A stretch of DNA of 64,000 bases from Actinomycetota bacterium. GTDB taxonomy: Bacteria; Actinomycetota; Actinomycetes; Propionibacteriales; Propionibacteriaceae. Below are positions 9,022 through 15,168 of the stretch, piece after piece (positions within the stretch are counted from its first letter, which is position 1; every line of letters starts with the position of its first letter). The notes under the pieces are model-generated. The model was given only the letters and a program-made list of their open reading frames with translations, searched no databases and was not told the origin of the DNA. The stretch lies in assembly GCA_020161795.1 (NCBI GenBank), contig JAIUOR010000066.1, positions 1 to 64,000 of the forward strand. The letters are read 5' to 3'. Both the position numbers and the translations under genes were made by a program.

Positions 9022-10701
9022 CGAGAGACGTTGAAGACACCCCCTGCGTTGCGTCCGGACACCCTGCGGATCATCCCGCTCGGCGGGCTGGGCGACGTTG
9101 GGCGCAACATGGCCACCTTCGAACTCAACGGCGAACTGCTGCTGGTCGACTGCGGCGTGCTGTTCCCCAGCGAGGAGCACCCCGGCGTCGATCTGATTCT
9201 CCCCGGGCTGCACCTGGTGGCCGACCGGCTGAAGGACGTTCGCGCCCTGGTGCTCACCCACGGCCACGAGGATCACATCGGCGCGGTGCCCTACCTGCTG
9301 CGGCGCCGTCCCGACCTCCCGGTCTACGGTTCCCGGCTCACCCTGGCGCTGGTGCGCGAGAAGCTGCGCGAGCACCGGCTGCGCGATGTCGACCTGCGGG
9401 TGGTGGCCGAGGGCGAGAAGGTCAGCGCCGGCGGGTTCAGCCTGGAGTTCCTGGCGGTCAACCACTCCATCCCCGACGCGCTGGCGGTGGTCATCCGCTC
9501 GGTGGCGGGCACCGTGCTGCACACCGGCGACTTCAAGATGGATCAGTTGCCGCTGGACGGCCGGCTGACCGACCTGCCCGGCTTCGCCCGCCTCGGCGAG
9601 GAGGGCCTTGATCTGTTCATGCCCGACTCGACCAATGCCGAGACACCGGGTTTCACCCCCCATGAGATCGACATCGAACCGGCCATGGAGCGGGTCTTCG
9701 CCTCGGCCAAGCAGAAGCTGATCGTGGCCTGCTTCGCCTCCCACGTCCACCGGGTGCAGCAGGTGCTCGACGCCGCCGTCCGGCACGGCCGCAAGGTGGT
9801 CTACGTCGGCCGCTCGATGGTGCGCAACATGACCGTTGCCCGCGAGCTGGGGTACCTGAAGGTGCCGGAGAACACCCTGATCGATCTCAAGCAGATCGAC
9901 AACTACCGCGACGACGAGGTGGTGATCGTCTCCACCGGCTCCCAGGGCGAGCCGCTGAGCGCGCTGTCGCGGATCTCCAACCACGAGCACCCGGTCATCA
10001 CCGCCGGCCCCGGCGACGTGGTGCTGCTGGCCAGCTCGCTGATCCCAGGCAACGAGAACTCGGTGTACCGGGTGATTAACGGCCTGGCCCGCAACGGCGT
10101 CACCGTCGTCCACAAGGGCAACGCCATGGTGCACGTCTCCGGCCACGCCAGCGCGGGGGAGCTGCTCTACTGCTACAACCTGCTCAAGCCCCGCAACGTG
10201 CTGCCCGTCCACGGCGAGATCCGGCACCTGATCGCCAACGCCGAACTCGCCCAGCGCACCGGCGTCCCCGCTGAGCGGACGCTGGTGGTCGAGGACGGTG
10301 CGGTGGTCGACCTGGCCAAGGGCAAGGCCCGCGTGGTTGGCAAGCTGGAATGCGGCTACATCTTCGTGGACGGCTCCACCGTCGGCGACATCGGCGATTC
10401 CGAGCTCACCGATCGCAGGATCCTGGGCGAGGAGGGCTTCATCTCCATCGTGGTGGTGGTGAACTTCCACGACGACACCATCGTCAGCGGGCCCGACATC
10501 CACGCCCGCGGCTTCGCCGAGGACGACACGGTGTTCGACGGCATCCGCACCGAATTGGTGCAGGTGATCCTCAAGGCCATGGCCGACGGCATGGAGGACA
10601 CCTATCAGTTGCAGCAGGTGGTGCGCCGCACGATCGGGCGCTGGGTGAACAACAACTACCGCCGCCGCCCGATGATCCTGCCGATCGTGGTGGCCACCTA
10701 G
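9019..10701 (+). CDS. rnj: Ribonuclease J
   Basis: 560-residue metallo-beta-lactamase/beta-CASP ribonuclease, with 5'-3' exonuclease and endonuclease activity in mRNA decay and rRNA processing. Seen: GGLGDVGRNM; the zinc motif HGHEDHIG at residues 81-88 (His81, His83, Asp85, His86); HTGDFKMD; the beta-CASP part with STGSQGEP; and the C-terminal motif VHVSGHAS. Length is the usual 550-560. The GTG start is set by the promoter hexamer just upstream. Neighbouring dapB is a conserved association; many actinobacteria also have dapA between them, absent here. Confidence 0.96.
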   Translation: MRETLKTPPALRPDTLRIIPLGGLGDVGRNMATFELNGELLLVDCGVLFPSEEHPGVDLILPGLHLVADRLKDVRALVLTHGHEDHIGAVPYLLRRRPDLPVYGSRLTLALVREKLREHRLRDVDLRVVAEGEKVSAGGFSLEFLAVNHSIPDALAVVIRSVAGTVLHTGDFKMDQLPLDGRLTDLPGFARLGEEGLDLFMPDSTNAETPGFTPHEIDIEPAMERVFASAKQKLIVACFASHVHRVQQVLDAAVRHGRKVVYVGRSMVRNMTVARELGYLKVPENTLIDLKQIDNYRDDEVVIVSTGSQGEPLSALSRISNHEHPVITAGPGDVVLLASSLIPGNENSVYRVINGLARNGVTVVHKGNAMVHVSGHASAGELLYCYNLLKPRNVLPVHGEIRHLIANAELAQRTGVPAERTLVVEDGAVVDLAKGKARVVGKLECGYIFVDGSTVGDIGDSELTDRRILGEEGFISIVVVVNFHDDTIVSGPDIHARGFAEDDTVFDGIRTELVQVILKAMADGMEDTYQLQQVVRRTIGRWVNNNYRRRPMILPIVVAT

Positions 10702-10756
10702 TCGGTGATACCCGTCGCGGACCTCGCCCGATTAGGCGACAGCCCGCGATCTCAGG

Positions 10757-10809
10757 TATCGTGATGCGGTCCCCAGCATTGAGCATGAACGTGCCGAGCC
10801 CGCGCTCGG
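10757..10809 (+). promoter_or_regulatory. rpmB promoter and leader hairpin
   Basis: TATCGT at 10757-10762 is a good -10 and predicts a leader of about 65 bases. The leader contains the hairpin CCGAGC-CCGC-GCTCGG at 10794-10809, ending 11 bases before the GAGGAG Shine-Dalgarno. A role in regulating L28 is only a possibility. Confidence 0.45.
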
Positions 10810-11098: not shown

Positions 11099-13885
11099 CT
11101 ACCAGCGCTGGTGGACCTCCTCGGCCCAGCCGAAGAGGTCGGCGATCCGGACGGTGATGCCGTCCACCTCCACCCGGCCGGACCAGGTTCCGAAGCACTG
11201 GTGGGTGGCCGACGAGATCAGCTTGAGGTCGGTGGCGGAGGCCTTGTCGTACTCGGGGGTGAACACCAGGTCGATGCCCTCGCCGGTGACCTGCCAGGGG
11301 GTCAGCCAGTCGTCGGGGTCGTAGCGCCAGACCAGTTCCTGGCCGATCTTGTGCAGCCGGCCGTCGACCAGCAGCGAGTTCTCGGTGCTTCCCGTGCCGT
11401 CGGTCCACTTACCCCCGACCTGCAGGCCGAGGACGCGGCCGTCGGTGCGTCCCGACCCGGCGCCCCAGTTCCAGCTGATCCGGTGCGGCCAGCGGCCGCG
11501 TCCGTGGTCGAGGGTGGCCCAGGAGTCGCCCTCGGGCAGCTCGTGCGCCTCGCCGTCCAGCCAGATCGTGCCGGAGGCGGGACGGGCGACGTCCTTGACG
11601 GTGTACTGGAAGAGCCGGTCGCTCCACGGCACCACCACGCCCAGGCATTCGTGGCCTTCCGGTCGGTGCGCGAGGAGGTCGACCCGTACCCGGTCGGTGG
11701 ACGCCTGCATGCGGGTGCCGCCGTCCACCTCGGCGATGGTGACCTGGAGTTGCTTGGTGTCGAGCCTGATCGGACCGGCACCGAGCGTGCCGGGCAGCTC
11801 GACTCCGGCGCCGAAGGGAGTGATCACCTCGACAGCGACCGGAGTGCCCGTGGCCCGGTCGAGCAGCCACAGGGAGTTCACGCCGGCGTAGTCGATGTCG
11901 GAGACCACCACCGCGAGGACGTGGCTGGGCGTGGTGATCGCCCAGTACTCCCAGCGCTTGTTGCGTAGCGCGCCGACCCGTCCGCGCGCGATGCCGTCGG
12001 TGGTGATCAACGGGGTGCGGGTCCAGCCGACCGCGGCACGATTCAGATGCCCGGTCGGCGTGGTCAGGGAGATCGGCGTGGTGATCTCCCGCTCGCGGAC
12101 CGGCACCGGGACCGACCCGGCTCCGACGGCGCTCGCGAAGGTCTCCTGCAGCCTGGCGTTGGAAGCCCGGACGGCTTCGGCGTCCACCTTGGTCACCCGA
12201 CGGTCGTAGGTGAGCAGCCCGTTGGTCTCCTGCTCGACGTCGGCCAGCTGGGTGTAGACGAAGGCCGACAGCCCCCGCGCCAGCGCCGGACGGATCTGGT
12301 CGTCCTGCAGGTCGAGGAAGGCCCGCTCGAAGGCGTCCCGATCGGGGATGCGTCGGTAGCCGAACTCGGCATCGCTGGCGACGTGGCCGGGCACCCGGTG
12401 CGAGTAGCCGCCGTACTCGCTCAGCACCGCCGCCCGGGGGTCGCGCTCGTCCGCTGCCGAGAGCCGGTAGGGGCGGAAGTAGACGTGGCGGCTCACCATG
12501 TCGCCGGCGCCCTGGTCGTGCCAGCCGCTGGCGTGGTCGATCAGCCGCGTCGGGTCGAGCCGGCGGACCCGTTCGGCGACCGCAACCGCGTCGAACTGGC
12601 CCCAGCCCTCGTTGAACGGGACCCAGGCCACCACGCTGGGGGAGTTCCGCAGCAGGGCCACGGTCCGGTCGGCCTCGGTGAGGAACTCAGCCCGTCCGGC
12701 TGCGTCCTGGCGTCCGAACCGGCGGTGGTTGCGGTCGTCCAGCCGTAGCCGGCTGACCGCGGGCGCGCTGATCACCAGTGGGTTGTAGGTGCGACCGCCG
12801 TTCACCATGTCCTGCCAGACCAGCATGCCCAGCCGGTCGCAGTGGTGGTACCAGCGCAGCGGCTCCACCTTGATGTGCTTGCGCAGCATCGTGAACCCGA
12901 GCTCCTTGGCGGTGGCGATGTCGTGGACCAGTGCCTCGTCGCTCGGCGGGGTGAGCAGGCCGTCCGGCCAGTAGCCCTGGTCGAGCAGGCCGGCTTGCAG
13001 GTAGGGCTCGCCGTTGAGCAGCAGCCGGGTGCGGCCCGCGGCATCCGGGCCGATCGCCACCGAGCGCAGCGCGGCGTAGGAGGTGACCCGGTCGTCGCCG
13101 TAGCGAATCTCAAGGTCGTAGCAGAAGGGATCCTCCGGCGACCACGGACGAACCTGTGGCACCGGCAGCCAGGTCAGCTCGTCCGGCGGCGTGTCGGCGT
13201 CGGTGATCACCTTGCCGGAGACGGCCAGCGTGACGTGGGCGCGTCCGGCCAGCGGGCCTTCGGTGTGCACGCGGATGCCCAGCCGGCAGCCGTCCAGGTC
13301 GGGGACCAGCTCCAGCTCGCGCACCCAGGCCGACGGCACCGACTCCAGCCAGACCGTCTGCCAGATCCCCGACTGCGACGGGTACCAGATGCCGCCCGGC
13401 GCGAGGCGCTGCTTGCCGCGGCTGCGGTACGAGGTGTCGGTGACGTCGCGCACCCGCACCACCAGTTCGTCCTCACCGCCGGTCAGCGCGTCGGAGATGT
13501 CGAGGGCGAAGGGGAGGAATCCACCGGAGTGTCCGCCCACGGGGACGCCGTTCACCCAGATTTCCGCATCGGAGTCGACCGCGCCGAAGTGCAACCGGAC
13601 GCGGTCCCGTAGGAAGCCCTCCGGCAGGGTGAACGTCCGGCGGTACCAGAGGGCCTCGCCGGGCTGCAGCGTCCGTCCCACCCCCGACAGCGCGGCCTCG
13701 GGTGAGAAGGGCACCAGGATCCGGCCGTCGAACCGCGGCCGGCTGGTCTGGCTGGCCGCGGTGATGGCGTACTCCCAGTAGCCGTTGAGGTTCAGGTAGG
13801 AGTCGCGCACCAGCTGCGGTCGCGGATACTCCGGCAGCACCCGTTCCGGATCCAGGGTCTCGCCCCAGGGCGTCAGCAGGGTCAC
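11099..13885 (-). CDS. Glycoside hydrolase family 2 enzyme fused to a DUF2804 domain
   Basis: 928 residues without signal peptide, hence cytoplasmic. Residues about 1-590 are a GH2 hydrolase (beta-glucuronidase/galactosidase/mannosidase type): the jelly-roll sugar-binding domain (YLNLNGYWEYAI, GIWYPSQSGIWQTVWLE), an immunoglobulin-like domain, and a TIM barrel with acid/base Glu426 in FNEGWGQ and nucleophile Glu490 in SEYGG. Residues about 598-928 form a complete DUF2804 domain (REITTPISL, GALRNKRWEYW, WNWGAGSG, GGKWTDGTGSTEN, DLFGWAEEVH). The frame is continuous with no stop or restart at the junction. GTG 13885 sits in a GTGA overlap with the MFS gene and has GGAGGA upstream. Substrate unknown; DUF2804 has no established function. 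Confidence 0.88.
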   Translation of the reverse strand: MTLLTPWGETLDPERVLPEYPRPQLVRDSYLNLNGYWEYAITAASQTSRPRFDGRILVPFSPEAALSGVGRTLQPGEALWYRRTFTLPEGFLRDRVRLHFGAVDSDAEIWVNGVPVGGHSGGFLPFALDISDALTGGEDELVVRVRDVTDTSYRSRGKQRLAPGGIWYPSQSGIWQTVWLESVPSAWVRELELVPDLDGCRLGIRVHTEGPLAGRAHVTLAVSGKVITDADTPPDELTWLPVPQVRPWSPEDPFCYDLEIRYGDDRVTSYAALRSVAIGPDAAGRTRLLLNGEPYLQAGLLDQGYWPDGLLTPPSDEALVHDIATAKELGFTMLRKHIKVEPLRWYHHCDRLGMLVWQDMVNGGRTYNPLVISAPAVSRLRLDDRNHRRFGRQDAAGRAEFLTEADRTVALLRNSPSVVAWVPFNEGWGQFDAVAVAERVRRLDPTRLIDHASGWHDQGAGDMVSRHVYFRPYRLSAADERDPRAAVLSEYGGYSHRVPGHVASDAEFGYRRIPDRDAFERAFLDLQDDQIRPALARGLSAFVYTQLADVEQETNGLLTYDRRVTKVDAEAVRASNARLQETFASAVGAGSVPVPVREREITTPISLTTPTGHLNRAAVGWTRTPLITTDGIARGRVGALRNKRWEYWAITTPSHVLAVVVSDIDYAGVNSLWLLDRATGTPVAVEVITPFGAGVELPGTLGAGPIRLDTKQLQVTIAEVDGGTRMQASTDRVRVDLLAHRPEGHECLGVVVPWSDRLFQYTVKDVARPASGTIWLDGEAHELPEGDSWATLDHGRGRWPHRISWNWGAGSGRTDGRVLGLQVGGKWTDGTGSTENSLLVDGRLHKIGQELVWRYDPDDWLTPWQVTGEGIDLVFTPEYDKASATDLKLISSATHQCFGTWSGRVEVDGITVRIADLFGWAEEVHQRW

Positions 13886-15168
13886 AGTTCCTCCAGTTCC
13901 AGGACGGGCGCGGCCGTCCGCCGCAGCACGCGGGCGGGCAGCGCGGCCAGCACCGCCACCACGGCGGCGGCGAGGAAGATCCAGGCCGTCGGCACCTGCT
14001 TGACGACTCCCAGCTCCACGTAGGTCTCGGCGGCACCCGAGATCACCGCCGCCCCGATGAACGGGCCGATCACCATCGGCACCAGCACCACGGCGATCAT
14101 CCGGACGCCCTGCACTTGCCCGGCGCGATCGGTGGGCGTCAGGTTGCGGACGGTCGCCGACAGCGCGGCGCCGGTGAGCAGGAAGGCGCCCATCATCCCG
14201 ATGCCGGCGAGGATTACTGCGACCTGCCCGCGGGCGAAGAACATCGCCAGCAGCCCGATCGCGTAGCCGCCGGTCGCCGGGATCACGGCGCTCACCAGGT
14301 CGCGGCGGGCGAGCAGGCGCCCGCCCAGCACGCTCACCAGCGAGGCCCCGATCAGCACACTGGCCAGCACCAGCGCGTAGTTCTCGATCGCGAGCGTGGT
14401 GTTCACGTAGATGATCAGGTACGGCATGAACACCTGGAAGCTGATCCCCAGCACCGCCCAGGTGGCGAAAGCGAGATAGAGCCGGGGGTTCGCCCGGATG
14501 GTCGCCGGCCGCAGCCCGTGCAGCACGGTGTCGAGGTAGGTGCCGCTCGGCTGGGGATTCGGGGCGGTGCGGACGCCGAACCAGGCCGCCACCCCGACCA
14601 CCGCGGTGACGCCGCCGACCAGGCCGAAGAAGGCCGTCCACTGCCCGGCCTTGGTCAGCGGATCCAGCGCGCCGAAGACGATCAGCATGCCCAGCAGCGG
14701 CAGCGTCTGGATCACCCCGTCCACCTTCGCCCGGTTGGCCGAGGTGGTGGAGTCGGTCACCCAGGCCTGGTAGGCGGCATCGTTCGCTCCCGACCCCAGG
14801 AAGCTCATCACCGCGTCCAGGGCGATGATCGAGACCACCGCTATCGCCACCCCGTTCGGCAGGGACGGGTCGACCCCCACCAGCCCGAACCCGGCGGTGG
14901 TGAGTCCCCACAGCACGTAGCCGAGCGCGATGAACTCCCGCCGCCGGCCCACCCGGTCCGACCAGGCGCCCACCAGCAGCGTCGCCAGGGTCGCCGCGGC
15001 GGCAGAGATCGCCACCATCGCCGCGATCGCGTTCGGGTCGTCGGTGATGGTGCGGTAGACGAACACGTTGAGGTACATGTTCTCGATCGTCCAGGCGAGC
15101 TGCCCGGTCAGTCCCAGCAGCACCACCCACAGCCACAACCGGCCGCCGACCCTGGCATCGTCGCTCAC
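13882..15168 (-). CDS. MFS transporter
   Basis: 428-residue major facilitator with about 12 hydrophobic segments. Seen: the loop 2-3 signature GAWSDRVGRRREFIALGY and a weaker equivalent in the second half (GRLLARRDLVSAVIP). It starts at a GTG preceded by TAGGCT and a 7-base gap (leaderless) and ends in a GTGA overlap with the GH2-DUF2804 gene, so the two are made together. Import of an oligosaccharide or glycoside for the cytoplasmic hydrolase is the natural inference, resembling transporter-GH2 pairs elsewhere. Sequence alone does not give substrate or direction. Confidence 0.85.
   Translation of the reverse strand: MSDDARVGGRLWLWVVLLGLTGQLAWTIENMYLNVFVYRTITDDPNAIAAMVAISAAAATLATLLVGAWSDRVGRRREFIALGYVLWGLTTAGFGLVGVDPSLPNGVAIAVVSIIALDAVMSFLGSGANDAAYQAWVTDSTTSANRAKVDGVIQTLPLLGMLIVFGALDPLTKAGQWTAFFGLVGGVTAVVGVAAWFGVRTAPNPQPSGTYLDTVLHGLRPATIRANPRLYLAFATWAVLGISFQVFMPYLIIYVNTTLAIENYALVLASVLIGASLVSVLGGRLLARRDLVSAVIPATGGYAIGLLAMFFARGQVAVILAGIGMMGAFLLTGAALSATVRNLTPTDRAGQVQGVRMIAVVLVPMVIGPFIGAAVISGAAETYVELGVVKQVPTAWIFLAAAVVAVLAALPARVLRRTAAPVLELEEL

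Follow-up and report, generated by a model that had tools for sequence, protein, structure and literature searches.

Fusion of a GH2 glycosidase with DUF2804 suggests that the domain is an enzyme related to carotenoid hydratases

A fused GH2-DUF2804 gene behind a transporter gene

The window analyzed here is a 64,000-nucleotide stretch of DNA from an Actinomycetota bacterium of the Propionibacteriaceae (contig JAIUOR010000066.1). On its minus strand, positions 11099 to 13885 form a single open frame of 928 amino acids with a GTG start, and the corresponding frame on the plus strand carries stops; the original prediction had described an uninterrupted frame here, as we found, without naming the strand. 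The gene encodes a GH2 part (residues 1 to 579; 12149 to 13885), a stop-free linker (residues 580 to 597; 12095 to 12148) and a DUF2804 domain (residues 598 to 928; 11102 to 12094), all on the minus strand. Pfam placed Glyco_hydro_2_N at residues 79–184 and Glyco_hydro_2_C at residues 317–473 of a GH2 region that spans residues 3–579. The match to DUF2804 (PF10974) was full-length, covering residues 598–928 and positions 1–339 of the 339-position profile (E 6e-98; 328 bits against a curated cut-off of 26.9), which bears out the earlier claim of a whole domain beginning at about residue 598. Likewise, the DNA at the junction between the halves contains no stop and, by eye, no convincing start or ribosome site.

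The first gene of the operon (13882 to 15168, minus strand) encodes a 428-residue MFS transporter (PF07690; Pfam E 6e-26). Its stop and the start of the GH2-DUF2804 gene share a 4-nt GTGA overlap read from the sequence (13882 to 13885, minus strand), which indicates that the two genes are coupled, as had been proposed. A promoter search gave nothing above chance. Most of the related loci also carry an MFS homologue, placed upstream of GH2.

Within the GH2 half, Glu426 (FNEGWGQ) and Glu490 (SEYGG) occupy the positions given in the original prediction and, together with N425, do not vary among the 21 aligned GH2 rows; by alignment, E426 is assigned as the acid/base and E490 as the nucleophile. 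T545, also invariant in 21 of 21 rows, is a candidate, assigned by inspection, for the Thr that group III enzymes have in place of the −1 subsite Trp. The nearest solved structure is that of the β-D-galactofuranosidase ORF1110 of Streptomyces sp. JHA19 (PDB 9J6M/9J6N, GH2_18), which shares the catalytic Glu pair; relative to 9J6N, the GH2 half has 44% identity over its length (E 1e-138, TM 0.89). A GH2 protein of solved structure from Bacteroides cellulosilyticus is 40% identical to the GH2 half, and the GH2_19 protein 7XYR is more distant (28%). In the 2025 subdivision of GH2, 9J6M belongs to GH2_18, and group III enzymes are reported to act on furanosides (PMC12243196); we assign kinship to group III (GH2_18) by similarity to 9J6M/9J6N rather than by a CAZy subfamily HMM. 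On this basis, β-D-Galf or α-L-Araf is the most likely substrate of the GH2 half, with β-Galp also possible.

The two proteins differ in architecture. The crystallized JHA19 protein (612 aa) has no DUF2804 and 9J6N carries an N-terminal extension, whereas the fused protein begins directly at the GH2 fold. In addition, most GH2_18 enzymes are secreted (PMC12243196), whereas the fused protein is coupled to a transporter gene. The missing extension would fit a cytosolic enzyme supplied by that transporter.

Recurrence of the GH2-DUF2804 partnership

Searching public genomes with the full-length protein revealed seven further fused genes (L002–L008), in Occultella, Propionicimonas, two Nocardioides, Tessaracoccus, Cellulomonas and Arachnia, with 63–70% identity over the aligned length; with the window, this makes eight fused loci. 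A sequencing or assembly artefact or a frameshift is ruled out because the same fusion stands on these seven independent contigs. In eight other actinomycetes, GH2 and DUF2804 are encoded by separate genes that adjoin or nearly do so, on the same strand in four cases (L010, L012, L016, L032) and on opposite strands in the other four (L011, L013, L014, L017). Two Bacillaceae (Bacilli) have the gene order MFS-DUF2804-GH2, reversed relative to the actinomycetes, and MFS-GH2 pairs are common across Clostridia. DUF2804 lay inside the flank at 15 of the 20 actinomycete GH2 loci returned, a sample in which fused loci are over-favored because two of the six search peptides were taken from DUF2804; four of the five genomes with the remaining loci carry DUF2804 elsewhere.

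Co-occurrence at the genome level was examined in the clostridial order of one carrier, a check free of this search-peptide bias. DUF2804 was found in 56 of 74 GH2-positive genomes versus 21 of 126 GH2-negative genomes (odds ratio 16, p 8e-17, a statistic that ignores phylogeny), and in one genome of the set (G503) the two genes lie only 36 bp apart. Among 396 Actinomycetota, a loose GH2 threshold gave no co-occurrence of GH2 and DUF2804 (4 of 43, p 0.27); this threshold probably also catches more distant, secreted galactofuranosidases. Overall, about one sixth of the sampled Actinomycetota genomes carry DUF2804, and in one clostridial order the share exceeds one third. Some Christensenella-order genomes (for example G583, G557 and G490) hold as many as four DUF2804 genes, among them far more divergent copies (E about 1e-19 to 1e-31).

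In the DUF2804 tree, all fused rows form one clade (support 100/97) that spans several families, and the GH2-adjacent Bacilli rows fall in another deep clade, far from that of the actinomycetes. These separate deep clades imply that the partnership is either very old or has arisen at least twice, and either origin, ancient or repeated, would point to function.

Many DUF2804 genes have no GH2 or sugar-related neighbor. In 20 DUF2804 neighborhoods from the actinomycete phylum we found no GH2 or MFS homologue. The one partner that recurred was an MscS-type channel, encoded beside DUF2804 in all five genomes examined from family f27 of the phylum (L111–L115). The original view that DUF2804 proteins are normally separate is correct for most DUF2804 genes but fails for the fused clade. 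The wider surroundings of the GH2 loci are mostly diverse, with the exception of GH36. In Nonomuraea pusilla, genes for a GH36 α-galactosidase, GH2 and DUF2804 are consecutive and the MFS gene is absent (L016:5960–10648). At the Leifsonia locus L010, two DUF2804 genes adjoin (9817–10809, plus strand; 11321–12307, minus strand), one belonging to the GH2 operon and the other being a divergent long-branch copy.

Predicted fold and candidate active site of DUF2804

A structure model of the DUF2804 part, for which the original prediction had called, was obtained with AlphaFold2 from 45 sequences and had a pLDDT of 95.3 and a pTM of 0.92; a model of the full-length fusion reached a pTM of 0.68, with the arrangement of the domains uncertain. 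In both Foldseek and VIA, strong structural matches were confined to AttH, kievitone hydratase, the fungal Diels-Alderases CghA, Fsa2 and Phm7, and 25-phosphosteroid lyase. Foldseek E values for these fold relatives ran from 2e-8 to 5e-5, and their VIA Z scores of 20.2–23.0 stood against 6.1 for the next row. We conclude with high confidence that DUF2804 is predicted to consist of two lipocalin-like barrels of the AttH/CrtC/kievitone hydratase fold class. The predicted double barrel is shared with CrtC (PF07143/PF17186), kievitone hydratase (7A0Q) and AttH NE1406 (2ICH) at only 9–14% sequence identity and, unlike these proteins, DUF2804 is fused to or encoded beside a glycosidase. For 25-phosphosteroid lyase (9FZN, 9G4C) and the Diels-Alderases (VIA Z 20–22), which act on other substrates in other reactions, the likeness covers the fold and not active-site residues. 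A sequence search of DUF2804 against the PDB found no relative, and PF07143, the CrtC family proper, was absent from the Pfam matches of DUF2804 up to an E of 10. Kinship with CrtC therefore rests on structure and on profile-profile comparison.

The second of these routes, which is independent of the structure search, compared DUF2804 with 14 CrtC-family proteins from actinomycete-phylum genomes. The hhalign match (84.5%, E 7e-6, score 50.3) exceeded all controls (at most 27.2 in 100 column permutations, 13–14 for reversed profiles and 21 for GH2) and spans only about the first two thirds of DUF2804 (model columns 55–227). Its register places LDHGRG..WNW of DUF2804 on YHDHNWG..WYW of the CrtC family, which aligns D793 (11507 to 11509, minus strand) with the catalytic Asp of CrtC and W805-N-W807 (11465 to 11473, minus strand) with its catalytic Trp pair. 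The loop between them is shorter in DUF2804, where WxW lies 12 and 14 residues past the Asp versus 15 and 17 in CrtC. A D..WxW pattern can also be read in the AttH and kievitone hydratase alignments. In CrtC, activity depends on D268, postulated to donate the proton, and on the cation-stabilizing W110, W283 and W285 (PMC12402844).

The Asp and WxW are kept in 44 of 45 DUF2804 rows and, together with RxKxW, an E and a K, are invariant or nearly so over these 45 divergent sequences; the third Trp may come from the RxKxW motif, which is conserved in the first barrel. Like the fused proteins, the free-standing DUF2804 rows examined keep D and WxW, with one exception. In a DUF2804 paralogue from Oscillospiraceae (L051:12671–13648, minus strand), the conserved Asp and one of the two WxW Trp residues are gone; this is possibly a non-catalytic binding protein.

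Proposed function and competing explanations

To our knowledge, no member of DUF2804 has a known substrate or activity. The fold, the candidate active site and the genomic partnership suggest that DUF2804 is an enzyme related to carotenoid hydratases that partners GH2 on an imported sugar conjugate. We tentatively propose, with slightly less than even confidence, that an importer and a cytosolic, bifunctional enzyme are the products of the operon, and that GH2 would remove the sugar and a D793-dependent DUF2804 would then convert the aglycone or conjugate. The MFS protein would import a small glycoside, from which the GH2 half, as a group III (GH2_18-like) retaining exo-glycosidase, would, judging from its close homologues, cut a terminal β-D-galactofuranosyl, α-L-arabinofuranosyl or galactosyl unit. 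The DUF2804 half would be an enzyme of the AttH/CrtC/kievitone hydratase fold class that works without a cofactor. Residue conservation suggests that D793 would donate a proton and that W805 and W807, perhaps with W645, would stabilize a cation in the inter-barrel cavity, in an acid-catalyzed hydration, elimination or isomerization of the freed aglycone or the intact conjugate. The fusion would hold together two consecutive steps of one pathway.

Galactose is plausible as the released sugar, because a galactokinase gene lies upstream of the Bacillus-type operon, a GH36 α-galactosidase adjoins two actinomycete loci (L002 and L016) and galactokinase, like GH36, is present in the window's own genome. 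UDP-galactopyranose mutase was not detected in that genome, so that any Galf substrate would have to come from another organism. In Cytobacillus (L055:3744–8011), MFS-DUF2804-GH2 is immediately preceded by the galactokinase gene and a divergent ROK repressor gene, and glpP and glpD lie farther upstream. A glycolipid is a possible substrate, given the hydrophobic substrates of the fold class and one expression study in Pseudomonas, in which the DUF2804 gene PA3342 rises with glycerolipid genes under GliR regulation (PMC8151288). PA3342 of Pseudomonas aeruginosa is a free-standing DUF2804 whose likeness to the fused domain is at the level of the Pfam family, not of its own residues. Therefore, of the role originally foreseen for DUF2804 in handling a sugar conjugate or glycolipid, the tie to GH2 and MFS stands and recurs across phyla, whereas the glycolipid draws on the fold class and the PA3342 study only.

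These observations also allow a more specific, though rather unlikely, explanation, namely that the operon serves catabolism of galactolipid head groups, with galactosylglycerol or a lyso-galactolipid being imported, GH2 freeing galactose and DUF2804 handling the glycerol ether, vinyl ether or acyl part. The galactokinase, ROK repressor and glpP/glpD pair near the Cytobacillus operon, the α-galactosidase at two loci and the induction of PA3342 together with GlpD-like, kinase and phospholipase genes (PMC8151288) are consistent with this idea. However, glpP-glpD lies by the operon in one genome and may be there by chance, a DUF2804 gene on a P. aeruginosa plasmid adjoins fumarase and unrelated genes, and group III of GH2 is known for furanosides, not galactosylglycerol; a literature search for galactosylglycerol with glycoside hydrolases returned nothing useful. 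Less probable is direct action of DUF2804 on the sugar, for example by hydration of or elimination from a modified sugar before or after GH2. A glycosidase partner in several phyla would suit such a role, but the characterized enzymes matched in the fold class use hydrophobic isoprenoid, polyketide or steroid substrates.

DUF2804 could instead be a non-catalytic binding or delivery domain whose lipocalin-like pocket keeps the hydrophobic portion of the substrate in place for GH2. The fold class is made of lipocalin-like barrels (by Pfam names), and DUF2804 also occurs as a separate protein beside GH2. We nevertheless give this explanation only a small chance, as the near-invariant residues of the 45 divergent sequences resemble an active site; the divergent Oscillospiraceae paralogue shows that the fold can exist without an intact D and WxW. 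A chance fusion of unrelated neighboring genes, without functional meaning, is very improbable and is largely refuted by conservation: although most DUF2804 genes have other neighbors, the fused rows form one well-supported clade over several families, the gene order in Bacilli is independent and the two genes co-occur in Clostridial genomes.

Extended to the family, the proposal of a bifunctional enzyme would make DUF2804 a group of uncharacterized cofactor-free hydratases or lyases of the acid/cation type, whose GH2-linked clade would, with the glycosidase and MFS, make up a conserved route for stripping the sugar from an imported glycoside and then hydrating or cleaving the aglycone; we regard this generalization as less likely than not. 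GH2 and the CrtC-like fold class are themselves already known. DUF2804 is seldom named in the literature we searched, and PF10974 was not found there; nor were the GH2-DUF2804 fusion, a CrtC-like fold and probable catalytic residues for DUF2804 or the association across phyla, in a search of papers rather than of Pfam or InterPro clan lists.

The functional lead first seen in the fusion is thus real, by virtue of the recurrent partnership with GH2 and MFS across phyla, and our analysis adds to it a predicted fold and a probable catalytic site for DUF2804, and relates the GH2 half to galactofuranosidases. With these two predictions, and with a conserved partner enzyme whose chemistry is known, DUF2804 becomes an enzyme family that can be put to the test. 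Hydratases that need no cofactor are uncommon and in demand for biocatalysis. If the proposal is true, a glycoside pathway common to gut and soil bacteria would be relevant to the metabolism of plant conjugates or Galf.
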